This document shows, one piece after another, positions 4,661-33,861 of a stretch of 40,279 nt of DNA (its first letter is position 1; each line of letters opens with the position of its first letter). The stretch comes from a virus: positions 1-40,279 of the IMG/VR virus record IMGVR_UViG_3300021090_000059; one strand, written 5' to 3'. The notes beneath the pieces are model-generated. The model was given only the letters and a program-made list of their open reading frames with translations. It did not search any database and was not told the DNA's origin. The translations under genes were made by a program, and so were the position numbers.

Positions 4661-4726
4661 GTGATGCGGGCATTTGCGTTTGTCCCAGGAGGAAAGTATC
4701 TTCTCACAAAGAGGAACATCAACTCA

Positions 4727-6979
4727 ATGGCCGAACTTCAATCAATGGGCGATTTCAAGTCTGGTGTGCTGAACACCCAGAGCGGAGTTTCCCAATTTTC
4801 CAACCTCCCGTACAACCTTCAGGATAATAACGATCGGCAGACGCTGACGAGTCTGATCCAGAAATGGATCACGGACGCCGATAGCGTGCACCGCCAGTAT
4901 TGGCCGGAGTGGGATGAGGTTGACGATCGGCTGAACAGCGCCCGCATTCCGGTGGGATTCACGACGAAACACGCGGAACAACTCGCGGCCGTGAACAATC
5001 CCAAGTTGCAGTCCAGGAAGACCAGGACGATGCGGTCCTTTGTCACCGTGAATCGTACGCGGCCGAACCATGAGAGCACGATCGGAGAGTTCATCTCCAT
5101 CCGACGTAAGTTGATGTTGAACGCGACGAACCCCACGGACCGCAACCGCGCCCGGGTGATGCAGAAACGCATTGAATACATCGAACGCACAGAGATGTTG
5201 CCGGACGAGATTTATTTTCCGGCAATGGATGGGGCCTGGGCGAAGGGACTCCACTGGATCGGCGTCACGTACAATCCCTTCGCCCGCGGGATGCGCGGTC
5301 GGTTCGATGTCACGGAAATCAACGTGCGCGATATCCTCCTGGATCCCGGGACGCGCGGACACTTCATGCAGGAGAAGGAGTATCTGATCCATCGGTATAA
5401 GATGCCGATCGAAGAGGCCAGGGTTCACATGCGCCGCTATCCACTCTTCGATGCAACTTCCCTGGGCGCCGACAATGAGTACGACGAACCATACCAGCGG
5501 CGCGACAACATGCCACGCAGTGAGTATGCGACCTTCTACCATGTCGAGTTTTTCCGCAAAGAGCCGACGTACTATGCAGCCGATCCGAACACGGGTGGTA
5601 TTCAGCGTATCGGGCGCGGCCTCTACGATGTGCTTAACGCTGATCCGAGGATGGCCGGAGTTGTGTTCGAGGGTGAGCAGGAGGAAAATTACTACGTCGC
5701 CCTCTACAACTCTGATCAGGGTGTGTTCCACTTGCAAAAAAACGTCTTCGACGCATGGACGCGGATACCTCTCGTCAACATGGCCACAGACTCAAGGGTC
5801 TATCCACTCGGAGACGTGCAGGTCTACGCGTCGCTTGCCGATCTTCTTGACACCGTTGTGACGGTCTTCCTCCAAAACGCGAAGCGCACAAACAAACCGA
5901 TCGCCGATGTGGACGAAGAGATGTTCGAGGAATATCAGTCGTACATCGATGAGGTCCTTGAATCGGGTGGAGCTGCGCCGGGTATCAAAAACATTTTTAA
6001 CGTGCAACCGATCAATTCCCACCTGGTGATGCTCATTCCGTGGATCATGGGATGGATTCAAGACACCGTATCAAGACACTCGGCGTCACAGGGACAACTC
6101 CCGGCGAAACAGATTGCAAAGGAAACGGTGGAGTTGATGATCCAGCGGGACCGCGTCGCGCACGGACGGAAGGATGTGACACTCCGGTGGATGCTCACGC
6201 AGTTGGCGCGGATTCTCGCGCGTGGCATTACGATCTTCGACAAGGACCCGGACTTCTTTCAACTCACCGATACGGGCCCCGGCGAGATTGACTATGTGCC
6301 CGTCAACCAGGTGTGGACGGAAGCGGAGTACATCACGCAACTCGCGTTGATGGCCGGGTTGCACGTTCCCGAGCCTCCACAATTGGATCGCCTCCCGCAG
6401 CAGGTCCACAATCTGGCAACGACACAGTACGGTCAGGAATCGATTGCCTTTGAAGAGGCAATGTACAACATCCGTCGGCGTTTTGAGCAGGACAACGATG
6501 TGAAGTCGGTCCCCCAGGAAGGCTACATCATCGAGGGACGAGAATATACGGACGACGATGTTGTGTCCATGCTGGAAGAGTCGGGTCTGTCCTGGGAGGA
6601 ATTCAACGCAACGTACCAAGTCCAACGGGGCAACATCCAGGTATATCTCGTCAATCCGTTCGATGAGGATCTTGAGTACAACATCGAATACACCGTTGAC
6701 ACCGATTTCCAGAACGATCCCGAGTTCAAGACGAATCAGGCGCTCCTTCTCAACGCACGCGGCGCCATGGGCAAGTTGGACATGCTCAAGCAAATGAACG
6801 TGCCCGATGCGGACGGTATCCATCGACGAGCGCTTGAGGAGAACGAAGCGATCCAGATGGCAATGGCGATCGCAGAGCATCCCGAACTCAGGGACCAATT
6901 CCTTGCACTGATCCAGGGCACAGCCAGTGCAGCGGCAGGCAAGAATGGCAAGACGAAGAAACCCGCGACGGCGCAATGA
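4727..6979 (+). CDS. Portal protein, P22/podovirus type
   Basis: 750 residues from ATG 4727, which has GAGGAA about ten bases upstream; a GTG at 4661 would add 22 residues but has no better site. Size and sequence fit large podoviral portal proteins: an N-terminal helical region, then a core with DEIYFPAMDGAWAKGLHWIG, a VRDILLDPGTRG segment and YLIHRYKMPIEEAR, followed by long helices and a C-terminal helical barrel-like tail rich in Gln, Glu and Ala. The dodecameric portal forms the DNA entry vertex, binds terminase and nucleates procapsid assembly. The end overlaps the next gene by four bases. Confidence 0.85.
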   Translation: MAELQSMGDFKSGVLNTQSGVSQFSNLPYNLQDNNDRQTLTSLIQKWITDADSVHRQYWPEWDEVDDRLNSARIPVGFTTKHAEQLAAVNNPKLQSRKTRTMRSFVTVNRTRPNHESTIGEFISIRRKLMLNATNPTDRNRARVMQKRIEYIERTEMLPDEIYFPAMDGAWAKGLHWIGVTYNPFARGMRGRFDVTEINVRDILLDPGTRGHFMQEKEYLIHRYKMPIEEARVHMRRYPLFDATSLGADNEYDEPYQRRDNMPRSEYATFYHVEFFRKEPTYYAADPNTGGIQRIGRGLYDVLNADPRMAGVVFEGEQEENYYVALYNSDQGVFHLQKNVFDAWTRIPLVNMATDSRVYPLGDVQVYASLADLLDTVVTVFLQNAKRTNKPIADVDEEMFEEYQSYIDEVLESGGAAPGIKNIFNVQPINSHLVMLIPWIMGWIQDTVSRHSASQGQLPAKQIAKETVELMIQRDRVAHGRKDVTLRWMLTQLARILARGITIFDKDPDFFQLTDTGPGEIDYVPVNQVWTEAEYITQLALMAGLHVPEPPQLDRLPQQVHNLATTQYGQESIAFEEAMYNIRRRFEQDNDVKSVPQEGYIIEGREYTDDDVVSMLEESGLSWEEFNATYQVQRGNIQVYLVNPFDEDLEYNIEYTVDTDFQNDPEFKTNQALLLNARGAMGKLDMLKQMNVPDADGIHRRALEENEAIQMAMAIAEHPELRDQFLALIQGTASAAAGKNGKTKKPATAQ

Positions 6980-9956: not shown

Positions 9957-11126
9957 ATGGACGTACCCATTGTATATTACGATCGACCGATTGACTCGAC
10001 CGCAGGGACGGTGATCAATGTCGACTTCAGTGCCGACTTGACCTTGCAACATGAGTCAGAAGTGCCGCTCATCACGCTTCTCTCGAAGTTGAAGACGGCG
10101 CGAACTCAGACCAACGAGTTCAAGTTCGCAGTTGGACGATTCGCACCGCGAACGTCCGCAGCAGCAGCAGCGGTTCTCGCCGGCGCAATCGGCGCGACAG
10201 CAGCTCTCACCGTTACCGCTGGGCATGGCGTCTATTTCGTTGCGGGAGACGTTATCGAAACGCCCGAGGACAACAACGACGCAACACACACCAACCAGTT
10301 GTACATCCAGTCGATTGCAGGCGACGTGCTGACGGTACGCGCCTACGATCCTGCGACGTTCGGCGTGGCGGCCATCGATCTTGCCGCTGTGGTGCGAAGG
10401 ATTTCCTCGGGCATGATCGAGGGATCCAGCGGTCGGGCATCCAGCCAGACCGTGCCCACCGTGTACAACCAGTTCTGCCAGTCCTTTGAGGATTACTTCG
10501 ATGTAACACGCGTCCAGGCGGAAAACCGGAACTACACGGGTCCGGAGCGCACGCGCCTGCGCGAGGAAGCGCGCAAGAAGCACGCCGTGGATATGGAATA
10601 CGCGGCGTTCTTCGCAAAGAAGGTCAAGGACACCACGACGCCCGGCAAGCCCCGTTACCAGATGGACGGGTTGTTGGCACAGATCGTCACCAACAAACTC
10701 GCGTATGGCGCCGCGCTTGCCGATACGGAGTTGTACGACTTCATGACCGATGTGCACAACCCGAGGTATTCGGGTGGGAACAAGCGCATGGTCCTGTCGA
10801 GTGGCGATTTGTTGGGCTCCGTCAACAAACTCGCGACCAGTGCCATTCGGATCACCACGCGGGACACCACATGGGGGCCGAACATCACGGAGGTCCAGTT
10901 CGCCGGCAAGATCTGGCAGTTCATTGAGACGCCAGCTCTGTCCGAAGCCCGTCCCGGTTGGGGCGCCGTCGTCCATCCGTCGTACATGCGGAAGCGCGAC
11001 CTCATCCCGACCATGTACGAGATGAACGTCCAGAATCCCATCGATAAGTTCTACAAGGATGGGTTCTACTCGGTGTGGGCCTTTGAAGGCCGACTCGAGG
11101 AGGTGTTCGGACTGATCACGCCGTAA
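9957..11126 (+). CDS. Major capsid protein (HK97 fold, SU10/DUF5309-like)
   Basis: 389 residues with a good GGAGGA site. The N-terminal arm leads to an inserted beta segment (about 70-150; TVTAGHGVYF ... DVLTVRAYDPATFG), then a helical spine segment with RTRLREEARKKHAVDMEYAAFF, typical of the SU10-like capsid group, where a His-x-x-x-(I/M)-E motif starts the long helix. The C-terminal half has SSGDLLGSVNKLA and VVHPSYMRKRDL, consistent with the A and P domains. It follows the scaffold candidate and is followed by a strong terminator, as expected for a highly expressed gene. Confidence 0.85.
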   Translation: MDVPIVYYDRPIDSTAGTVINVDFSADLTLQHESEVPLITLLSKLKTARTQTNEFKFAVGRFAPRTSAAAAAVLAGAIGATAALTVTAGHGVYFVAGDVIETPEDNNDATHTNQLYIQSIAGDVLTVRAYDPATFGVAAIDLAAVVRRISSGMIEGSSGRASSQTVPTVYNQFCQSFEDYFDVTRVQAENRNYTGPERTRLREEARKKHAVDMEYAAFFAKKVKDTTTPGKPRYQMDGLLAQIVTNKLAYGAALADTELYDFMTDVHNPRYSGGNKRMVLSSGDLLGSVNKLATSAIRITTRDTTWGPNITEVQFAGKIWQFIETPALSEARPGWGAVVHPSYMRKRDLIPTMYEMNVQNPIDKFYKDGFYSVWAFEGRLEEVFGLITP

Positions 11127-21622: not shown

Positions 21623-22564
21623 ATGCCCTTCGGCCAAACAGACTACACCCAAGTTGATCGCGTCACGAGTGCGCTCAGTTACGCTAATGAGTTGCTTGCG
21701 AAGAAGGAACAGATGCAGTTCCAGCGAGAGCAGGACAAGGCGGAGCGTGAGCAGGTGGCTGGCGTGATGGAGAAATTCGCCGGTGAAGTCCAGGGAAAAA
21801 CTCCCAAAGAGTCAGTTCAGGCCAGTGCAGGCGCAGAAGCGGGGTTGGCACGATTCGGAGGCCCACGGTCACAGGAAGCGTCAAAGAACATCTTCAGCTA
21901 CTTGCAGGCGCGCACGGCAGCAGAGCCACCGCCGAAACAGTTCCCGCCGCAACGTCCCATTGAGATCAGTGTGCCGACGCCGGAAGGTGGTCCCACGGTC
22001 GTGAGCAAGGGAGGAGTCAACTACGAGAAACGCGAGTTGATCAACCCCGAAACGAAGGAGTCCTATGGCTTCCTCTTCCGAGACAAGGGCCAGCCGTCAG
22101 GTCTGTTTTCCGGTGGACGCGGCGGCCCAATCAAGGAACTCGGCGCCATGTTTGAACGGAGCCCAGAAGGTAAACTTCGTATCAAGCGGCAACCCGACGG
22201 GAAGCCAATCCCATTGCGCCGGGAAGATCTGATCAAGTTGCGTTCCCAGGTCGAGGACGATTCACGGCAGACAAGGGCGCAACGCAACTCCATGATGGAG
22301 GATCTTGCGGCAGCCGAAGGAGACGCGGACTTGTACGAAGGCTACGTCAGTTCCGAGTCGGACAACGAACAGTACCGGGCCTTGTACGATTCAGCCGTGA
22401 AGGAGAAGGAACGCATTCAGGGATTGATGCAGGAGTCCGACACGCGCTTGCAGGATCTGGACAATCTTCTCGAGGACGTGAACACCTACAATCCAGAGGT
22501 TGCCACGCCGTCGACGCAAACACGCGGCGCCGGTCCCAAAGCGTATAAACCGCCGGGGCAGTAA
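21623..22564 (+). CDS. Coiled-coil virion protein, ejection-type (313 aa)
   Basis: ATG 21623 follows GGAGAAG. Strongly charged N-terminal helices (AKKEQMQFQREQDKAEREQ) and a C-terminal coiled coil (about 215-290) flank a Pro-rich middle. It has no hydrophobic segment. It lies between the gp7-like protein and the giant protein and shares a base with the latter's start, so it is probably part of the same ejection set. Confidence 0.6.
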   Translation: MPFGQTDYTQVDRVTSALSYANELLAKKEQMQFQREQDKAEREQVAGVMEKFAGEVQGKTPKESVQASAGAEAGLARFGGPRSQEASKNIFSYLQARTAAEPPPKQFPPQRPIEISVPTPEGGPTVVSKGGVNYEKRELINPETKESYGFLFRDKGQPSGLFSGGRGGPIKELGAMFERSPEGKLRIKRQPDGKPIPLRREDLIKLRSQVEDDSRQTRAQRNSMMEDLAAAEGDADLYEGYVSSESDNEQYRALYDSAVKEKERIQGLMQESDTRLQDLDNLLEDVNTYNPEVATPSTQTRGAGPKAYKPPGQ

Positions 22565-25500
22565 TGCCCGATACTTTTGACCCCAGGGGTAGTGGGTATG
22601 ATTATGAAACCGCCAAGAAGTATGGCATCACGCCCGATGAGAGCGGGCACATGCCGAGCCGCGAACCAACTACCGGCCTGATACTCAAAGGCAAGCGACA
22701 TCCCACCTTCGACAAGACTCTCGCGGGTGAAGAAAAGGCTGGCTATCGAATCGTGGAAAAAAACGGCAGACTCTACTCGTTCCCCGCGCTAACATCTGAC
22801 GAAGTTGTTGACCGTGCACGCACGCAAGGTGCATTCATCAAGGATCTTGCGCGTCACCCCGCCTATCAAAACTGGACCCCGGAAGAGATCGTCCCGTCAT
22901 TCTCCGACTTCCTACGAACCGGCACACCGGAGGAGAAGCAACGATTTTTCTCCGACGTGGGAAAGCATCTCCCCGCCTGGCGAGGATGGAAACCGGACGA
23001 GATTGTTCAATCGCTGAAAACGGACATCTTCTTCACGCCGTCCCCACAACAGCAGCCTGAGCCAAACCTACCGATCAAGGCAGCACTCGAACAGAGTGGC
23101 GCGGTCAATCCTCTCGCTGATACGACCTTCCGGCAGTTTGATTCGATCGTCACAGCCGACGCCACGCGCGTGGGCGAGACGTTCGACGCGACGAAGTTCC
23201 AGGATTTCATGTCAGAGAAGAATCAGCAGAAAGCCCGGTACAAGACGTTGCGCGAAGAGATTGCGATGTTGTCCAGTGATGGCGATTTCCAATCCAAGAA
23301 GTCCGAAGCGGAAGAGATCCACAGTGAACTGTCAAAGGACACAAGTTGGAACTCCTTTGTTCAGGAATCGAACACGCTTGCACAGATCGGTCAGCAAGAA
23401 CAACTCACCAACGATCAGATCCGGGAATACAACGCCAGGGTTGGCCAACTCCAAGCCACCTTGCCGCAGTTTGCCGACAAGATCCAGAAGTCCGAACGTC
23501 TGCAAGCCCTGATGAACGATCCCAACTTCCTCACGAAGATCAAATATGAGGATGAAGTAATCAAGTCGGCCCGGGAAACAACGAAGGACATCCGGGACGC
23601 GGTGGATAACGCAGAACGTGCACGGGTACTGAAAGAGTATGTTGTCGGACCGTTGAAACGTAAGATCGACGACGAGTTGAGCAGGACGCGCCCACCGGAA
23701 GAGTATCCTTCGGGAATGCTGAATCCGGCCGGCGCAATGCTCGGACAGTTTGTCCCCATCTCCGACGAAGCGAAGACATACCGGGAACTCACCCAGGCAA
23801 AACGCATGGTCCAGCAAGTTGAGGACATGCCCATCTCTTCCGATACATGGACGCCCGCGCTTGATCGCTTGATGCAAGGACTCGGGACGGTGCTTGCGCC
23901 GGAGAAGGTTCCTTTCCTTGGCGATGCGTTGCGCATTGCGCAGTCCGAACGGTTGCGAGATCTGCGCGACAGGCAGATAAGCGGGAAGAAATTGAACGAG
24001 GCAGACCAGGCGTTACTTGACGCGTTCGACGCCACGGAGGAATTGAAACAGATCCCGGGTGTTCAGGATACGTTCTATCAACTTGGTCAGGGCCTTGGCG
24101 GGCTTATCCCCTATGGGGTGGAGTTTGCCATCACGGGCGGGGTGTACACGGCCGCGAAGACGATTGGACGCCGGCAGATCGGAAGGATTCTCGGTGCACA
24201 GGCGTACCATGATCTTCTCCGGACAGCAGCACGCGGGCAACTGATCAAGCGTCTCGGTGCGAACGTCGTTGCGGAAGCCGCGCCCGCAGTGTTTGCCGGG
24301 ACCGTACAGTCCCTGGCGAACCCTCTCCGTATCCTGGCAGGAGTGGAAGAGCGTATCGTACCGCTCATGGAACTCACCTTCTCTCCCGCCGGCGAAGTGA
24401 TCAACCGCGAGTTGGACAAGCAACCGGACTCTTTCGGCAAGGCGTTCGCCAAACAGGTTGGCAAGGACGCGGTAGAGTACGTCACCGAACGCATGGGTAT
24501 CGTGGTAGAGAAGCCGGTGGAACTGATGAAGCGTCTCGTTCTCGGTCGGTGGATGCAGAAGAAGGCGATGGATCTGACGAACGTCCAGAAGGCACTCAGC
24601 TACATCCGCACGAATGTCGGGTGGAATCAGATGGTGGGCGAGGTTTTCGAGGAAGTGGGTGGACAGCCTTTCCAATCGTGGATTGAGACGGGCGAGTTCA
24701 AACTGATGTCACCGCAGGAGATGTTGTTGACCGCAACCGTCGTAGGTGTTCCGTCGCTCATTGGCGGCGCTACCAGGATGCTGGACATTCCGAACCGTCT
24801 TCGTGCTGAACGGGCACAGGCAGAGCGTTCCACCCTTGCACAGGCCCTCCAGGAGGAGAAACCGGAAGAATACACGAACATTCCTCCGCCAATCGAACCC
24901 ACCGCACCGGGAACGGCCCCTGGGACGCCCACAGCAAGGTCAACGGAGGAAGAACCCAACATTCCACCCGCTCAAGGGGTTGAACGCCCCGCAGAGCGAG
25001 GTGCAGGGCCTACTGTACCAATCGAGGAGGTCATTCCCGGGGAACTCCCCCAGGAGCGACTTGACCAGTTGAAAGCCCGTGAAATTGAGGCAAAACGCAA
25101 GGCGGCCTTCCAGAGGGAGAAGGAGAAGAAAGCGGCGCCTCGCTCTACATTCACGCCCGTGGAAAACATCCCAGAAGTTCCGAGCGATCCTCAACAGGTC
25201 CGTGAAGAATTGCTTGCGGCAGGCGTTTCCGAACGTGAGATCGTCAACATGACGGAAGGACAGTTGTTCCGCAAGTGGCGCGACTACGCTGGACTGAAAA
25301 CATACACGGAGGTCCGGGACACAGTCGCAGCGCAGAATATCGGAGCGAAATTCACGATCGAACAGGCCAAGGCCCGCTTTGCCGAGTTGAAGGCGATACC
25401 GGCAGCAACAACACAGGATGCAATCGTGCAAAAGCAGTTTGTCCGTGAAGAGATCGAAGGCTTCCTGCAGACGCCGGAGAACAAGGCGATTCTGGACGCG

Positions 25501-28500
25501 GTCGGCATGGTGAAGGGAAAGTTCATTGCGTTTACGCGTGATGAGATTGGTCAGGCGCTTGACATCCTTGCAGGGAAGAGGAAGGTAACCCCCGCCCCAT
25601 CGACGAGTGTCGTTGGTGGTCAACCCATCAACCTCACACCGTCCGAGCCACAGAAGAAGGCTGGCAACTATCAGAAGGGTCACGCGACGATACAGGGTCT
25701 TGAGATCTCCATCGAGAATCCGATTGGCTCAACGCGTAGCGGGACGAACATCGAAGGCGAGAAGTGGGAGCAGGAAGTCAAGGCCGATTATGGATATATC
25801 CGTGGAACGGTCGGCAAGGACAAAGATCACATCGATGTTACGATTGGCGGGAATGCCGAGAGTCAGTTCGTGTTCGTCGTGAATCAGAAGAAACCGAACG
25901 GATCATTCGATGAGCACAAGGTCGTGCTTGGAACGACGAGTGAGGAAGAAGCCAAACAGGTGTACCTATCCAACTATCAGGCAGATTGGCTCGGAAAGCA
26001 AGGCGGTGAAATTGACGGCGTGGCAATGACGGTCGATCAGTTCAAAGACTGGCTGAAGACTGAGGACACGACGAAACCCGCAACCGTTAGGAAGCAACCC
26101 CGGATTAGTCCAGGTGGATTGCCGAAACCACCGGAACCGCCAAGGCCGAAACCGCTGACACCAACGGAGCAACGCATTCAGGGCGTGAGGCAGGAACTGG
26201 ACGATCTCGAAAAGCAAATGCGGGATCTTCTGGGCGGGCAACTCAACATGGGATTCGATCCACGGGTTGCCGCTGTTGCAACACAGATGGCCGTCAAATA
26301 TGTGGAACTCGGGATTTACACCTTCAAGAAATTCGCTGAGGAGATGATCCAGAAGTTCGGTCAGGGGATGAAGCCGTACCTGAAACAGGCATGGGGGGGG
26401 GCATTCTTCGCGTCAGAACCCGGGATTCAGGCGAAAATGGACAACACGGATGTCGTCAACAAATTCGATCTTGAGACGATCGGCAAGGAGGAAGCGAATC
26501 CGCTTCTTCCGATGGCAGAGAGTATTCGGGATAGCTTACTCACACAGGCCGTGCTCGGTGACAAGCGCAGTCTGGAAATACTGGCCCGGGGATTCGAGAT
26601 CACGGACAAGAACCAGGCAAAGGAAGCGGCAGAACTCGGGATCGCAATGGCCGCGCGGACGATCGCCCGCGGGAAGGGATCCGATTCTGCAAAGTTGGAC
26701 GCGTTGATTGATCTGTACAAGCGTCAACCATCACTCACTCACAGGACAAGTGAGTCGATCGCCATGCAACAGTACAGTACGCCGATCCCTCTCGGGTACA
26801 TCGGTGGTCTGTACGTGCGCGCAGACGAAGGCGCTCCCCTGTTTGAACCGTCGGCGGGGAATGGATTGCTCACGATTGCAGCAGACCCGAAGAAGGTTGT
26901 CGTGAACGAGATTGATCCGGTCCGTCTCGGGAACCTCCGATCGCAGGGATTCAAGGCAGTGTACGAAGAGGATGCGCGAGAACAACTTCCGCCCGCGTTG
27001 CGCGGGATGAACGTCATAACCAATCCCCCATTCGGCAACGCGAAGGACAGGATTATCTTCGACAGTTTTCCGTTGTCCAAGGATGATCACGTGATGAGCG
27101 CCCGTGCACTCGAGATCATCAACGACGATCAACGTGCGGTCCTCATTGTCGGCGGTAACCACGAATGGGATGTGGACGGGAATCTGAGGAACGACCGTCT
27201 TTTCTTCAACTGGCTGTACCATCACTATCACGTTGCGGACGTACTGAACATCTCCGGCGATCTGTACGCGAAGCAAGGAGCGAAGTATCCCATCCGCATG
27301 GTCCTGGTCAACGGACGGAAGGAAACGCCGGCGGGGTTTGCGCCGGAACAGAGTGCACAGACGGAGAAGGTGTACACAGATTTCCACGACATCTACCAGA
27401 GGATGAAGGCTCTGCGAGAAGAGGAGAACCCCGATGTACTACAACCTGAAACTGATACGGGACGCGGCGGACGTGGCCCTTCTGTGCCAGGAACACGACG
27501 ACCCGCTGACAGACCAACCATCGATACAATCACTGGTGTTCCAGAATCTGAAACGGCTGGTGGTGGAGGCCGAGGCCCAGGGACTTCAACCGGCACTATT
27601 AGCGGAGGAACTCCTGAAGGAGGCGTTCGACCCCCAGGCAAGCCCGCGCGAACTGGCATCCGAACTCCTGGAATCACCCCAAATACAGATGCGGCTTTCG
27701 GATTACCAATCACGCCTGCGCGAGAACTCACCCGGGGGGGCGTCGATGACGCTGCAAGAAGCAAACGCGCTTTACAGCGAGACGAGTCTTTGGCAGGTGC
27801 TCGAGTTGATACCTTAGACACGCCGTACATTCCGCAGTCCCTTACGCCGTCGCTCACGTCACTGACGCCGACCAACATGGCAAGCGACATCTTTGCCGTG
27901 CTGGACAAGTTCGAGGATGTGTACGGCAGCATTGACGAGTATGTCCGGCAGCAGCTAAAGTACAACACGATGGAAGAGTTGCACGAAGCATTTGCCGGAG
28001 AACAGATTGACGCGATCGCCCTTGCGATAGCGAACATTGAGATGGGACAGGCGTTGATCATCGGCGATCAGACTGGGATGGGGAAGGGACGATCCGCAGC
28101 TGGCGTTATCCGCTACGCGATTCAAAACGGGATCAAACCCGTTTTCTTCACACAGAACGGACGGCTTTACTCGGATCTGTACAGGGATCTGATAGATATT
28201 GGCTTTGGTCACATCAAGCCGTTCGTTCTCAATAGCGGCGTGAACATCGTGGACGATTCCGGGGGGATTCTTCATAAGGCAATCTCGACGCCGGAACACT
28301 CCCGGGTTGTGGCAACGAAGGATCTCACGGGCTACGATCTTGTGCTCACCAGCTATTCGCAGATCCAGAACGAGGAGTATTGGAAGAAGCGAGAATTCCT
28401 GTCCGAAGTGGCACAGGGGACGATCATGATTCTGGATGAATCCCACACGGCCAGCGGGATTGACTCCAACACCGGATTGTACATGACCAATCTGGTGCAG

Positions 28501-31500
28501 AACGCCAGGGGCGTTACGTTCCTCTCAGCGACCTTCGCCAAGCGACCGGACAACATACCGATCTACGCGGTGAAGACGGCAATGCGGGAAGCGAACGCCT
28601 CCATGATGGAATTGATTGAGGCGATCGTGCACGGGGGAGTGGCAATGCAGGAAGTGATTTCCGCGGAACTCACGGCCGCGGGACAGATGATGCGTCGGCA
28701 GCAGAGTTTCGACGGCATCACGATCGAGCGTGTTGTTCTGGACGACAAGAAGGAAGAGCACACGAGAATATCCGATATGGTCACGGACATCATCCGGGAC
28801 ATCATCGGCTTTCAGAGCGTCCATGTGGGCGCGGTGATTGAGATGTTGAAGAAGCGCGTCAAGGCAGAGGCCAAGCAAGTTGCAATGACGCAGGGAACCC
28901 GGGCGGCGGGTGTGGACAACGTACCGTTTGCCTCCAAGGTCCACAATGTCATTGAGCAACTGATGTTCGCCCTCAAAGTCGAAGAGGTTGCAAAGGAAAC
29001 GATTGCGGCAGCCAAACGCGGACAGAAGCCGGTGATTCTCTTCCGCAACACGATGGCGGCCTTCCTTGAAAATCTCGGCTATGAATTGGACGACGCAATC
29101 CCGGACACCGACTTTTCACGAGTGCTTGATAAGGCGCTTCTGGGAGTCATGCGCTACACCGTGCGGGCGCCGAACGGTCAGCAGACCCGGCACCAGTTGA
29201 AGCGTGAAGATCTCGGACGGGAAGGGGCCGAAGCCTTTGACACAATCAGAGAGAAGATCAAGGAAGCCAGTACAGGCATCACGATCTCTCCGATTGATAT
29301 TCTCGTTCAGCGATTGGAGGCAACGGGACTGCGCGTAGGCGAAGTAACCGGCCGGAAGAGACGGATTGACTTCTCAGGGACGGAGCCGAGACTTGCCAAC
29401 CGCAAGGAGCATGATTCACGCGCAACATTCAGGAAGTTCAATCACGGGGAGTTGGACGTTATCCTGATCAACGCCTCCGGTGGGACGGGCACAAGTGCAC
29501 ACTCCTCCGTGAAGTTCAAGGATCAGCGGCAACGTCTTGGGATCATCTTCCAGCCGAAACTCGACATCAACGAAGAGATTCAGGGTAGGGGACGTATCAA
29601 CCGTGTCGGCCAGGTTGTGTTGCCTCAGTATGAGTACATCTCGACCGCGATTCCGGCAGAACTGCGCATGATGATGATGCTCAAGAAGAAGATGAAGAGT
29701 CTGGATGCGAATACCACATCGAAACAGCGGTCCGCTCTCTCGATGGAAATGACAGACTTCATGAATAAGTACGGCGACCAGGTTGTCACAGAGTACGTGA
29801 AGGAGAATCTGGATTTCAATGATTCGATTGGCGATCCACTCAAGTTGCGTGATATGGACGAAGAGCAACTGGTGAAGTTCAAACGTGGGGAGGATGCAGC
29901 CCGCCGCGTCACGGGCCGCGTGGCAATTCTCCCGGTGTCGGAACAGGAACGGTTCTACCAGGAGATCACGCGCCGCTATGAGGATTACATTGACTATCTC
30001 AACTCCATTGACGAGAACGACCTTGAACTCAAGTCTCTCGACTTGAAGGCGAAGACGCTGACCAGCTTCATAGCGGCAGCAGGGAAGGGTGGTCAAACGT
30101 CCTTCGGTTCAGACACGACGCTCGAGACGATATCGGCACAGATCCTGCGCAAGCCGATGAAAAGAGCGGAAGTGTTGAAACTCGTCCAGCAGAGTGCAGG
30201 CGACAAATCGGGAGGCGAGATCCGGCAGCAACTGAGGAGTGACTTCGAGGAGTTTTGGAAAGGGCACACGGAACGGGAGTTGGCAAGGTACATGCCAAAG
30301 TCTTCCACTGAGAGCAACGACGATCGGGCCAAGAGACTTGATCGACGGCAGCGCGCAGTCCAGAAGTTGGAGAACCACCAAAGGCGGATGCAGGACCTGT
30401 TCGACGATTTCCAGGTGGGCCAGATTTACCGGATCCCGTTGATGCTGGACGATCCACAGTCTCCGCCGTCCCTGGCAGCCTTTATCGGATTCAAGATCGC
30501 GAAAGCAGCGAAGAACCCGTATGCGCCAAGCAACGTTGTTCTCCGGTTCGTCGTCAACGATCACAGGCGACAGATCTCCATCCCTGCCAGCGAAGCCGAC
30601 GCCCTCAACGCAATCAGGGTGGAAACATCAAGGAAGACGCCGATCCAGCGCAAGGACGAGTTCGAGAAGTGGGATACGAGCAGCTACGCCCGGGACAGGG
30701 AAACGCGAACCATCCTCACGGGGAACGTCTTACAGGGAATGACGCTGGATATTGCCTCCCACGGGAAATTGGTGTCGTACACAACCGATATGGGCGACGT
30801 GAAGCGTGGTATTCTTCTTCCGCACAATGTGCAGACGACGAAACTCGAGGAAGTCCGCTTGCCGATCAGCCAGGCCCTTGACTACATCATGGAACACCGG
30901 ATCGGTTATGAAATCGACACGAACAACGGGATCCAGTTCGAGAAGACACGTCAGAGCGAGTTCATTATGCGTGTTGCGAAGTCCAAGGCCGCCGGCGGCA
31001 TATACTATCTGGACAAGGACGTGCAGGGGCTTGTGAAGAACGGTCGCTTTGACAGCGTTGGTGATTCGATGGTTGGCTTCGTCCCGGAAGCCAACATGCG
31101 GAAGATGCTGAACCTTCTGGAAAACAAGTTTAACGATTCGATGATGATCCCCGAGGAGTTCGCACAGAAGGCACAGCAAAAGAAGCCGCCACAGGGTCCA
31201 AGGGCAGGCGATGAATTGGCCGGCAATCTCTATTCGATCGGTCCGGCGATCGTGCGCGCGTGGGACAGGATGATCAGGCCGTGGACGGAGCGTATCTTCA
31301 TCGGTATCATGCGTGTCGTGAACAAACTTCCAGAGTCCGTGAGGAAGTACCTCCGTGCCAGTTTTGCGCAGACGCCGGAGATCAGGGCAGCGTTTGAGAC
31401 GTTCCGGCAGATGGTGGGCGGTGGGAGAATCACGGTCAACAAAATGACGAGGATGATCCTCCACGGAGATGCCACCGAGGAAGAGTACAAGGCACTCGAC

Positions 31501-33861
31501 CGGATGCTGAGGGGACATCCGGACGATTTCAACACGTTGCCAGACGAGTTCCGTGCAGCGTGGAACCCGCTCTTTGATGAGTACCATGCGATCGCCCAGG
31601 AGTTGACTTCGGAGATGGGTGCGCTCGGTCTTCCCATCCGCGAAGAGTGGAAGGAAGGACCATCGCATTGGTATCCCAATATGTGGAAGCAATACTTCCC
31701 ACGGATGGTGCTCGGTCGTCTCTTCGGATTCGGCAGGCCCAACTTCCGCATTCGTGGAGCTGAGGCAGCACACACACTTCCGAGGATCACGGACAAGTGG
31801 GTGGTGCTCACTCCTGACGGGTCGATCGCCACGACACCGGGAACGAAACAACAGGCCATCTTTGACGAGGAAGACCAGGCAGACGCCTTTGTCGAAAAGA
31901 ACGGCGGCTACCGTGTGACGTATGTGGACAAGGACTCCGGGAAACTCGTTGAAGAGAAGTTCGACAGCTACGGTGAGCGGGAGAAACTTGTCCAGCAACT
32001 CTACCAGGACGCCACGGCAAGCAGAATTGAAAAGAAGAAACCGCAACGCTATACGATCATGGCGCCCATGACGCTGGAACAGATGATCGGTCACGGTTTG
32101 CTGGAAGATCCGATCATCAATGTCCGGCGTGGGATCCGGGAGGCAGTCGGGCTTGTGGCGAAGACGGGATTCTTCACGAAACTCGGTCAGGTTGCAGCCA
32201 GCGACGAAGCGGACGCGACACACAACGTCCAGTTGAAGGATTACAATTTCAAATTGCCGCCGAACATCGCCCACGCGAACGACGACATTGAACGGCTGAT
32301 GAATGGGTATATCCCGAAGTCACTCGCTGAAGATCTTGTGGCGTTGTACGGCCAGCGGGGATTGGTCCGACAGATGTATGACATGATCACACATGGCCTC
32401 AAAGCGGGATTCACGGTGTACAATCCCTTCCGCTATCTGAAACAGCCGATCGAAAACGAACTGTCTCTCTTCTTTGCCGATTCCGTACTGTGGCTGAACA
32501 AGGTGAGTCAAGCGCAGGTGTTCAAGGAATACATGGACACGGTGGTTGGCAGCACGCCCAACGAGAGGTACGATCTCTTTGTGAAACTCGGGGGAGACAA
32601 GGAAGACTTCTGGACGGCAGAACTCCGGCGGTACGGAAGGGATCTCTCACGCTTCCGGGATGTAGAGGGTGTGTCCTCGGTGTTGTCGCTTGCCGAACGC
32701 ATGGAGAAGTATCTTGAACAGAACAGGATGTACAACTTCCTGGCCGACAAAGCGGATCTTGCCCGGGCAATCTACCACCACGAGGATATCATCTACCGCT
32801 ACTATGCGTTCGTCGGATGGATGAAGCAAGGCATGACACCGCGGGAGGCCATGAGTCGGGTGCAAAACTCCTTCTTCTATGCCAAGGAGGCGCCGAAGTG
32901 GGTGACGAAGGTATCGCGTCACATCCCGTTTATCGTCCGTGTCAACTATGAGTTCGCACGGATCATGGCTGCTCGACTGCGGGACTATCCGGTGTCGACG
33001 GTGATGAAGATTGGCCTCATGCTGATCATGTACGATTGGCTCAGGGACATGCTCGCGGAGAAAGCGGGATGGGATTTGAAGGAGTTGGACAAGCGGGCGA
33101 ACAAGGAAGGCCCCAAATGGTGGGAACTTGTTTTGCCGATCACCGACGACAGGGGACGGAACATCATCGTCAACCTGACCTGGCTCATTCCCTTTGCTGA
33201 ACTCGGGTTCTTTGCCTGGGACGACAGCAAGGACGTGACGAAGAATGCACTGAGACTGACGCCGCTGGCGTTCAAGGGTGCACTGACAACGGCCTTCGGG
33301 AAGACGGCCTACGGGACGGACATCACGAAGCCGGGAGATCCCGACTGGCTCAAAAAATACGTCACGAATGGCGTTGTCCAGTACATGCCCTTCATGATGG
33401 GACAGTACCTTGTGAATCAGTACCGGAACGCCGTTGAACCGGACAAGGACCGCAAGGTTCCATGGTGGCAACGTGCCTTTGTTGCACCGGCGATCGGCGG
33501 GATCAGGCGCACGACACAGCGGGAGATCGTTGTACGGAGTCAGTTCCCCGCACTCGATAAGTTGAAGTATTTGCTGGACGAGAAGGCGAAACTCACAAGC
33601 AAGATTGATCTTGTCCTCAATATGGACGAAGTTCTCCGGCATAACAAGAAGGCGATGCAGGCCCTCAAGGACATTTCCAAGGATTACAACATGCCGATCA
33701 CGTCCAAGATGATCAAGTGGTACACGATTCGTCCGTCTGTGGCCTTGCGATCGGCACGACGCCGGCAGAAACGCCAGATGGAAGAGACGCCGCTTGAATC
33801 ACGCGCGGGCATCCGAATGATGGTACCCGGCGCGCCGGCAAGACGTGACACGGTGCAATAG
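22564..33861 (+). CDS. Giant polyvalent ejection protein: pyrophosphatase-like, methyltransferase-like and helicase domains (3765 aa)
   Basis: Domains seen in order: helical region with a Gly-rich hydrophobic part near 500-545; Pro-rich linker (773-863); inorganic-pyrophosphatase-like domain (about 1030-1166) with G-N-Y-x-K-G-H and D1086, D1088, D1091 in the D-x-D-x-x-D signature; helical DPRVAAVATQMAVKYVELG module (about 1225-1280); N6-adenine methyltransferase-like domain (about 1390-1580; EPSAGNG 1428-1434, NPPFG 1487-1491); Gly/Pro linker (1620-1760); Strawberry-notch-type SF2 helicase (about 1770-2400; Walker A Lys1841, DESH 1958-1961, QGRGRINRVGQ from 2340); then long helical modules to a C-terminus with hydrophobic stretches near 3478. 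This matches the polyvalent proteins of phages and conjugative elements (Iyer, Aravind and colleagues), thought to be delivered with DNA and to counter restriction, as with P1 DarB. A fusion of separate genes is suggested by the linkers. Confidence 0.8.
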   Translation: MPDTFDPRGSGYDYETAKKYGITPDESGHMPSREPTTGLILKGKRHPTFDKTLAGEEKAGYRIVEKNGRLYSFPALTSDEVVDRARTQGAFIKDLARHPAYQNWTPEEIVPSFSDFLRTGTPEEKQRFFSDVGKHLPAWRGWKPDEIVQSLKTDIFFTPSPQQQPEPNLPIKAALEQSGAVNPLADTTFRQFDSIVTADATRVGETFDATKFQDFMSEKNQQKARYKTLREEIAMLSSDGDFQSKKSEAEEIHSELSKDTSWNSFVQESNTLAQIGQQEQLTNDQIREYNARVGQLQATLPQFADKIQKSERLQALMNDPNFLTKIKYEDEVIKSARETTKDIRDAVDNAERARVLKEYVVGPLKRKIDDELSRTRPPEEYPSGMLNPAGAMLGQFVPISDEAKTYRELTQAKRMVQQVEDMPISSDTWTPALDRLMQGLGTVLAPEKVPFLGDALRIAQSERLRDLRDRQISGKKLNEADQALLDAFDATEELKQIPGVQDTFYQLGQGLGGLIPYGVEFAITGGVYTAAKTIGRRQIGRILGAQAYHDLLRTAARGQLIKRLGANVVAEAAPAVFAGTVQSLANPLRILAGVEERIVPLMELTFSPAGEVINRELDKQPDSFGKAFAKQVGKDAVEYVTERMGIVVEKPVELMKRLVLGRWMQKKAMDLTNVQKALSYIRTNVGWNQMVGEVFEEVGGQPFQSWIETGEFKLMSPQEMLLTATVVGVPSLIGGATRMLDIPNRLRAERAQAERSTLAQALQEEKPEEYTNIPPPIEPTAPGTAPGTPTARSTEEEPNIPPAQGVERPAERGAGPTVPIEEVIPGELPQERLDQLKAREIEAKRKAAFQREKEKKAAPRSTFTPVENIPEVPSDPQQVREELLAAGVSEREIVNMTEGQLFRKWRDYAGLKTYTEVRDTVAAQNIGAKFTIEQAKARFAELKAIPAATTQDAIVQKQFVREEIEGFLQTPENKAILDAVGMVKGKFIAFTRDEIGQALDILAGKRKVTPAPSTSVVGGQPINLTPSEPQKKAGNYQKGHATIQGLEISIENPIGSTRSGTNIEGEKWEQEVKADYGYIRGTVGKDKDHIDVTIGGNAESQFVFVVNQKKPNGSFDEHKVVLGTTSEEEAKQVYLSNYQADWLGKQGGEIDGVAMTVDQFKDWLKTEDTTKPATVRKQPRISPGGLPKPPEPPRPKPLTPTEQRIQGVRQELDDLEKQMRDLLGGQLNMGFDPRVAAVATQMAVKYVELGIYTFKKFAEEMIQKFGQGMKPYLKQAWGGAFFASEPGIQAKMDNTDVVNKFDLETIGKEEANPLLPMAESIRDSLLTQAVLGDKRSLEILARGFEITDKNQAKEAAELGIAMAARTIARGKGSDSAKLDALIDLYKRQPSLTHRTSESIAMQQYSTPIPLGYIGGLYVRADEGAPLFEPSAGNGLLTIAADPKKVVVNEIDPVRLGNLRSQGFKAVYEEDAREQLPPALRGMNVITNPPFGNAKDRIIFDSFPLSKDDHVMSARALEIINDDQRAVLIVGGNHEWDVDGNLRNDRLFFNWLYHHYHVADVLNISGDLYAKQGAKYPIRMVLVNGRKETPAGFAPEQSAQTEKVYTDFHDIYQRMKALREEENPDVLQPETDTGRGGRGPSVPGTRRPADRPTIDTITGVPESETAGGGGRGPGTSTGTISGGTPEGGVRPPGKPARTGIRTPGITPNTDAAFGLPITPARELTRGGVDDAARSKRALQRDESLAGARVDTLDTPYIPQSLTPSLTSLTPTNMASDIFAVLDKFEDVYGSIDEYVRQQLKYNTMEELHEAFAGEQIDAIALAIANIEMGQALIIGDQTGMGKGRSAAGVIRYAIQNGIKPVFFTQNGRLYSDLYRDLIDIGFGHIKPFVLNSGVNIVDDSGGILHKAISTPEHSRVVATKDLTGYDLVLTSYSQIQNEEYWKKREFLSEVAQGTIMILDESHTASGIDSNTGLYMTNLVQNARGVTFLSATFAKRPDNIPIYAVKTAMREANASMMELIEAIVHGGVAMQEVISAELTAAGQMMRRQQSFDGITIERVVLDDKKEEHTRISDMVTDIIRDIIGFQSVHVGAVIEMLKKRVKAEAKQVAMTQGTRAAGVDNVPFASKVHNVIEQLMFALKVEEVAKETIAAAKRGQKPVILFRNTMAAFLENLGYELDDAIPDTDFSRVLDKALLGVMRYTVRAPNGQQTRHQLKREDLGREGAEAFDTIREKIKEASTGITISPIDILVQRLEATGLRVGEVTGRKRRIDFSGTEPRLANRKEHDSRATFRKFNHGELDVILINASGGTGTSAHSSVKFKDQRQRLGIIFQPKLDINEEIQGRGRINRVGQVVLPQYEYISTAIPAELRMMMMLKKKMKSLDANTTSKQRSALSMEMTDFMNKYGDQVVTEYVKENLDFNDSIGDPLKLRDMDEEQLVKFKRGEDAARRVTGRVAILPVSEQERFYQEITRRYEDYIDYLNSIDENDLELKSLDLKAKTLTSFIAAAGKGGQTSFGSDTTLETISAQILRKPMKRAEVLKLVQQSAGDKSGGEIRQQLRSDFEEFWKGHTERELARYMPKSSTESNDDRAKRLDRRQRAVQKLENHQRRMQDLFDDFQVGQIYRIPLMLDDPQSPPSLAAFIGFKIAKAAKNPYAPSNVVLRFVVNDHRRQISIPASEADALNAIRVETSRKTPIQRKDEFEKWDTSSYARDRETRTILTGNVLQGMTLDIASHGKLVSYTTDMGDVKRGILLPHNVQTTKLEEVRLPISQALDYIMEHRIGYEIDTNNGIQFEKTRQSEFIMRVAKSKAAGGIYYLDKDVQGLVKNGRFDSVGDSMVGFVPEANMRKMLNLLENKFNDSMMIPEEFAQKAQQKKPPQGPRAGDELAGNLYSIGPAIVRAWDRMIRPWTERIFIGIMRVVNKLPESVRKYLRASFAQTPEIRAAFETFRQMVGGGRITVNKMTRMILHGDATEEEYKALDRMLRGHPDDFNTLPDEFRAAWNPLFDEYHAIAQELTSEMGALGLPIREEWKEGPSHWYPNMWKQYFPRMVLGRLFGFGRPNFRIRGAEAAHTLPRITDKWVVLTPDGSIATTPGTKQQAIFDEEDQADAFVEKNGGYRVTYVDKDSGKLVEEKFDSYGEREKLVQQLYQDATASRIEKKKPQRYTIMAPMTLEQMIGHGLLEDPIINVRRGIREAVGLVAKTGFFTKLGQVAASDEADATHNVQLKDYNFKLPPNIAHANDDIERLMNGYIPKSLAEDLVALYGQRGLVRQMYDMITHGLKAGFTVYNPFRYLKQPIENELSLFFADSVLWLNKVSQAQVFKEYMDTVVGSTPNERYDLFVKLGGDKEDFWTAELRRYGRDLSRFRDVEGVSSVLSLAERMEKYLEQNRMYNFLADKADLARAIYHHEDIIYRYYAFVGWMKQGMTPREAMSRVQNSFFYAKEAPKWVTKVSRHIPFIVRVNYEFARIMAARLRDYPVSTVMKIGLMLIMYDWLRDMLAEKAGWDLKELDKRANKEGPKWWELVLPITDDRGRNIIVNLTWLIPFAELGFFAWDDSKDVTKNALRLTPLAFKGALTTAFGKTAYGTDITKPGDPDWLKKYVTNGVVQYMPFMMGQYLVNQYRNAVEPDKDRKVPWWQRAFVAPAIGGIRRTTQREIVVRSQFPALDKLKYLLDEKAKLTSKIDLVLNMDEVLRHNKKAMQALKDISKDYNMPITSKMIKWYTIRPSVALRSARRRQKRQMEETPLESRAGIRMMVPGAPARRDTVQ
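27434..27817 (+). CDS. Embedded out-of-frame gene inside the giant gene linker (127 aa)
   Basis: The ATG at 27434 follows GAGGAG with seven bases between. The 127-residue product is rich in amphipathic helices (LVFQNLKRLVVEAEAQ; ELLKEAFDPQASPRELASEL) with no low complexity. By hand count 87 of 127 codons (about 68%) end in G or C, like flanking genes; the same bases in the giant frame give 46 of 127 (about 36%), while the giant frame just upstream shows 15 of 20. In the giant protein the region reads as a Gly/Pro/Thr/Arg linker, as expected when the constrained frame is the other one. No family recognised. Confidence 0.6.
   Translation: MYYNLKLIRDAADVALLCQEHDDPLTDQPSIQSLVFQNLKRLVVEAEAQGLQPALLAEELLKEAFDPQASPRELASELLESPQIQMRLSDYQSRLRENSPGGASMTLQEANALYSETSLWQVLELIP

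Follow-up and report, generated by a model that had tools for sequence, protein, structure and literature searches.

An overlapping reading frame conserved in the methyltransferase-helicase linker of giant DarB-like genes of phages and plasmids

Overlapping genes are already known, and among phages Rz1 is a gene nested within Rz, in another frame and with its own start. Small acidic helical proteins are also known from anti-restriction contexts, such as Ocr of phage T7. For prokaryotes and their viruses, long gene overlaps on one strand are considered to be uncommon and difficult to establish. In deltaretroviruses, Tax and Rex are encoded by two selected frames of the same strand, which include a new protein without known relatives (PMC3744397). 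As to the genes that surround the overlap described here, DarB of phage P1 is the archetype of the methylase-helicase dyads; it is a component of the virion head by which DNA is protected in cis from type I restriction (PMC5512222). In the DarB-like polyvalent dyads (Iyer et al. 2017, PMC5512222), which are multidomain phage proteins, an adenine-methyltransferase-like region is followed by a strawberry-notch SWI2/SNF2 helicase.

The DNA analyzed here is a virus record of 40,279 bases, referred to in its full length as the window. Its giant polyvalent gene (Table 1) has the same organization: an adenine methyltransferase region with the NPPF motif is placed N-terminal to a superfamily 2 SWI2/SNF2 helicase, and the gene has similarity to phrog_10089, which is DarB-like; no LPD36 domain preceding the methyltransferase was present among the Pfam matches of the giant in a general Pfam search. 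What distinguishes it from the described dyads is the interdomain linker, which appears to be dual-coded; a search for such terms in the text of PMC5512222 gave no mention of an overlap, a linker or a frameshift. Similarly to Tax/Rex, two same-strand frames seem to be selected and one of them specifies a new protein without known relatives; unlike Tax/Rex, the nested family is long-lived and has members in phages and plasmids of several bacterial phyla, the stronger constraint is on the small frame, and this frame is set between two enzyme domains of a giant protein. The arrangement of a complete gene inside another, in a different frame and with its own start, is shared with Rz1/Rz, to which the locus is not related in either sequence or context, and no lipoprotein or lysis role is indicated. 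The nested protein is small, acidic and predicted to be helical, and occurs in an anti-restriction context, as does T7 Ocr; it differs from Ocr in having no fold match in the PDB, a lower charge density and a gene that is not free-standing. No earlier description of an overlap in the methyltransferase-helicase linker was found in the open-access literature, most subscription papers lying outside this search. Thus, the new element is a putative long-lived and widespread nested gene in the linker of an anti-restriction-type giant, with selection on both frames. The comparison of dozens of loci shows such selection in a protein family linked to anti-restriction, adds a widespread and almost entirely unannotated family with an apparently unmatched fold, and offers a tractable place for studying how a disordered linker and a folded protein can be specified by one DNA sequence.

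Elsewhere in the window, the gene at 4661-6979 is similar to a P22-type portal and the one at 9957-11126 to an SU10-type major capsid protein, which suggests a podovirus-like phage; the giant gene sits among structural genes.

The earlier note on this DNA had described a complete 127-codon frame inside the giant gene, out of frame with it and provided with a GAGGAG ribosome site. Indeed, the ORF at 27434-27817, in frame +1, has its own start and stop, and the Shine-Dalgarno-like hexamer is present 7 nt ahead of the ATG (Table 1); in the window the nested frame is also open for nine codons ahead of this ATG. The counts of codons ending in G or C given in that note were reproduced for the small frame (87 of 127), for the giant frame over the same stretch (46 of 127) and for the giant codons immediately upstream (15 of 20), while the helicase motif (giant codons 1828-1847) gave 13 of 20 on recount, instead of 14.

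Table 1. Features of the giant gene of the window, of its nested frame and of other nested +1 frames in related loci
Feature	Position	Strand	Remarks
Giant polyvalent gene	22564..33861	+	3765 aa / codons
InPase (PF18823) domain of giant	25648..26058	+	Upstream of methyltransferase
N6-adenine methyltransferase-like region of giant	26689..27429	+	Codons 1376-1622; NPPF at about 1487-1490; phrog_14770 and likeness to N-6 DNA methylase proteins
Gly/Pro/Thr/Arg-rich linker of giant	27433..27819	+	Codons 1624-1752; apparently dual-coded with the nested gene
Strawberry-notch SWI2/SNF2 helicase domains of giant	28045..29997	+	AAA_34, Helicase_C_4
Nested gene (predicted)	27434..27817	+	Frame +1 of giant ORF; ATG to TAG; 127 aa; net charge -11; pI 4.3; predicted all-helical
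GAGGAG, Shine-Dalgarno-like	27421..27426	+	7 nt before nested ATG; seen in sequence
TGA, in-frame stop upstream of nested frame	27404..27406	+	Nested frame open from 27407 only
MDNxEAMYWLA family	L002:6146-6310
MDNxEAMYWLA family	L027:3667-3831
MDNxEAMYWLA family	L033:3394-3546
MDNxEAMYWLA family	L042:4381-4770
MDNxEAMYWLA family	L046:2239-2469
MDNxEAMYWLA family	L052:3181-3381
MDNxEAMYWLA family	L024:4903-5076
+1 ORF downstream of helicase in giant frame	L036:12961-13293		Strong AAGGAG-type site
+1 ORF downstream of helicase in giant frame	L069:12214-12429		Strong AAGGAG-type site
Pseudomonas plasmid +1 ORF	L178:4444-4947		167 aa
Pseudomonas plasmid +1 ORF	L181:4001-4504		167 aa
Pseudomonas plasmid +1 ORF	L182:4001-4504		167 aa
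Pseudomonas plasmid +1 ORF	L183:4001-4504		167 aa

The change of codon phase, which had been placed at the ATG and stop of the small frame, was recovered by a change-point scan with a codon model that is blind to start and stop codons: the segment chosen was 27430-27806, with 54.6 nats, the next largest value among the main genes of the window being 16.1. The codon usage of the 127-codon frame is genome-typical; the giant-frame GC3 over the overlap is 0.362, a value of 0.668±0.041 being predicted on the basis of the amino acids encoded in this frame, and none of 20,000 draws was as low. When the amino acids of the giant are kept fixed and synonymous codons are drawn from the usage of the gene itself, the protein read in frame +1 is expected to have a charge of +19.5±4.3, as opposed to the -11 found in the window. 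Other stretches of the giant frames of relatives reach a +1 codon signal of up to 54 nats, so codon bias is insufficient, and was rejected, as sole proof of a nested gene. The second-best +1 signal in the giant gene of the window (13.3 nats) is located at 24960-25019, in another Pro/Thr/Gly-rich linker; this stretch is probably not a gene, since its +1 frame is very basic and has no ATG.

A tblastn search with the 127-residue protein in phages and a first scan of IMG/VR gave no match, and the relatives were reached only through an alignment of the helicase, comprising 80 viral and 80 bacterial-genome loci. The same order of methyltransferase, linker and helicase is found in a Bacteroides phage and in cyanobacterial, alphaproteobacterial and other plasmids, the linker being usually disordered. 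Plasmid pAQ6 of Picosynechococcus sp. PCC 7002 shows such an arrangement, its +1 ORF being located on the minus strand at NC_010480.1 100507-101013, within SYNPCC7002_RS15125. A +1 ORF of about 100-170 codons occupies the same place in all 65 viral loci with a fused dyad and a long linker. The ORF is present in 0 of the 15 remaining viral loci, among which several contigs are truncated or show no recognizable methyltransferase. When the window sequence was left out of the training of a profile, the ORF of the window was still recovered by it, at E=1e-5 among 19,405 ORFs. Family members have an N-terminal W-x-P or YY and a C-terminal SLxxLLExL motif, and three sequence subfamilies, A, B and C, were recognized; C is tied to A by a C member matched at 2e-4 by the A profile, and the A-B sequence link is weak, so that common ancestry of subfamily B rests on position and frame. 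The mean charge is -9.7, as compared to the +11.1 expected of a by-product of the giant frame, and is more negative than expected in 66 of 66 members; charges range from -23 to +1, with a median of -9, and 65 of 70 members are negative, some being neutral. AlphaFold2 with the family alignment gave an all-helical model (pLDDT 87, pTM 0.82), and a mainly helical one for a member of another subfamily (pLDDT 86, pTM 0.79). Neither Pfam nor PHROGs contains a family matching the nested protein, and searches of the PDB, by sequence and by fold (threshold E<=0.001), and of BFVD gave no match. Thus, as judged from comparison, the nested ORF is a conserved family that keeps its place and frame in dozens of giants from phages and plasmids; these phages and plasmids are many and distantly related, and the ORF is hardly ever annotated in them. 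In the Bacteroidota chromosomal relatives (L090-L169) the nested gene is lost together with the long linker, of which about 30 residues are left, or other sequence is present instead, or the enzymes are coded by separate genes.

Substitutions were compared in 35 close pairs, many of them with members in common. Within the overlap they occur mainly at position 1 of the giant codons, which is position 3 of the small ones, whereas in the flanking methyltransferase and helicase of the same pairs they occur at giant position 3; identity of the small frame exceeds that of the giant linker in 34 of the 35. Divergence at four-fold sites was compared in 16 pairs, one or two per cluster. At the giant-frame sites it is 0.13 in the overlap and 0.56 in the flanks (Wilcoxon p=1.5e-5), and at the small-frame sites it is 0.38, also against 0.56 (p=2e-4). 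These per-site tests rest on pairs that do not include the window, the relatives of which are too diverged (47-50% identity in the helicase). The slowing in both frames indicates strong constraint on the small frame and a measurable one on the giant frame. Moreover, the giant frame is open in every fused locus bearing the small ORF, and the probability of this with the small protein fixed averages 0.035; selection therefore acts on the giant frame too, which is kept open and serves as a disordered linker between the domains. The suggestion of the earlier note that the two frames are a real overprinted pair is thus supported, and substitution phase, four-fold sites and charge all identify the small frame as the more constrained.

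On this evidence, the ORF at 27434-27817 is very probably a genuine nested protein-coding gene, both frames being translated and selected. Alternatively, Gly/Pro/Thr/Arg linkers could be naturally open and codon-like in frame +1, with no translation. Openness alone is indeed unsurprising, as the +1 frame stays open in 29% of the synonymous-codon draws for the window (P=0.29) and with an average probability of 0.22 across the family, and the strong +1 signals seen elsewhere in the giants of relatives agree with this explanation; however, a by-product of this kind is extremely improbable in view of a GC3 far under its null, a charge of opposite sign to the expectation, the shifted substitution phase, the slowed four-fold sites and the recovery of the window ORF by the profile. 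In one genome the same codon-phase pattern would also be expected from a compensating pair of indels or from assembly errors, the small frame being then the true linker of the giant, but the same arrangement is seen again in dozens of independent contigs, as well as in complete plasmids, and there the small frame has an ATG and a stop of its own while the giant frame is open, which reduces this chance to a negligible one. The small frame might instead be a C-terminal extension of the methyltransferase part, entered by a +1 ribosomal shift, as the nine open codons before the ATG in the window would allow. Against this, 40 of 66 relatives have an in-frame stop no more than 10 codons ahead of the nested ATG, and in these the small frame is not continuous with the upstream giant coding; an ATG is present in 66 of 66 family members, with the starts as chosen by the analyst, and a Shine-Dalgarno core in only 31 of 66, about half. 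The members without this core include probable Bacteroidota-infecting phages, and Bacteroidota hosts make little use of Shine-Dalgarno sites. The ATG, the upstream stops and the Shine-Dalgarno cores together favor independent initiation, and entry by frameshifting is very unlikely. Translation of a helicase-only product might also restart at the small stop; this was discarded as a general mechanism, because a giant-frame ATG is close to this stop in only 6 of 66 loci.

The origin of the pair is less clear-cut. According to the earlier note, a free-standing gene between separate methyltransferase and helicase genes was absorbed at their fusion: loss of a stop would have joined the flanks, and the linker would be a shifted reading of the intervening gene. 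The composition of the giant linker is that expected from the shifted reading of a normal gene, and the codon usage of the small frame is the more genome-typical, which is a published mark of the ancestral frame (PMC3744397); codon usage alone would favor the small frame as the older one. With a disordered partner, however, it may merely mark the more constrained frame, and absorption was not supported by the searches: a standalone homologue was found in 0 of the 15 viral loci that lack a fused dyad with a long linker and in 0 of the 80 bacterial-genome loci, PHROGs, Pfam, PDB and BFVD contained none, and subfamily scans of IMG/VR gave known loci only. In the helicase tree (FastTree, midpoint root, long branches), fused proteobacterial plasmid giants that have a linker and no nested ORF are placed near the base, and the separate dyads are nested within the small-gene lineages. 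This topology favors overprinting onto an existing linker, which is considered somewhat likelier than absorption of a free-standing gene, the latter being possible but doubtful. The small gene appears to be old within the main clade and to have been lost in the Bacteroidota chromosomal lineages, in which the linker is shrunken or the genes are split. As regards the protein itself, it could be an Ocr-type DNA mimic with anti-restriction activity, located inside an anti-restriction gene; the prevailing negative charge, the predicted helices and the resemblance of the host gene to DarB are in line with this proposal. It is nevertheless unlikely, since no PDB structure, and thus no Ocr fold, was matched at the threshold used, the charge per length is modest for a DNA mimic, and some family members are neutral.

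A different role may be envisaged, in which the nested protein would be made from the mRNA of the giant, starting independently at its own ATG, and the small acidic helical bundle would cooperate with the methyltransferase-helicase module as a chaperone, an escort or a temporary inhibitor, for instance; the giant, by analogy, would be packaged and injected like P1 DarB. The fixed synteny in the giant, the absence of the small gene where the dyad is not fused and the acidity of the protein are the reasons for proposing, tentatively, that it is a partner of the giant methyltransferase-helicase; the basis of this proposal is given by synteny, charge and the DarB analogy only.

Four Pseudomonas plasmids contain a 167-codon +1 ORF at the same position, for which sequence comparison with the main family gave no demonstrable homology. 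Between two of these plasmids, the substitution phase is 26, 16, 58 in the small ORF versus 87, 36, 382 in the helicase, as expected from constraint on the small frame. Three of the four annotations report the ORF as a separate hypothetical gene and start the helicase after it, with the giant truncated; for P. koreensis p2 the annotation gives the continuous giant frame and omits the nested ORF. The Pseudomonas gene was considered as an ancestral standalone gene and rejected, because the giant frame runs continuously over it. In a Gloeobacter plasmid (L007:5462-5911), WP_230844304.1 is the annotated product of the nested ORF; the annotation begins the helicase anew at an ATGA overlap, even though the giant frame runs on without a break from the methyltransferase. 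Annotation can thus miscut such loci, calling the small gene and restarting the helicase after it.

The same codon scan, applied to the giants of relatives, revealed additional ORFs in other linkers, all in frame +1 and not one in frame +2. A second conserved +1 family, characterized by the sequence MDNxEAMYWLA..., is present in giants of Bacteroides-type phages, 2.4-5.4 kb upstream of the small ORF, and its substitutions favor its own third position in most pairs. It may be, with a likelihood just short of an even balance, that nested +1 genes, missed by gene finders, arise repeatedly in the disordered interdomain linkers of giant polyvalent genes of phages, a reading under which linkers of the same giants other than the methyltransferase-helicase one would hold more nested genes. 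The codon signals of the two ORFs located downstream of the helicase are 37.5 nats (L036) and 32.9 nats (L069). The remaining additional +1 ORFs are single cases, and some of those near the starts of the giants are probably ordinary upstream genes.
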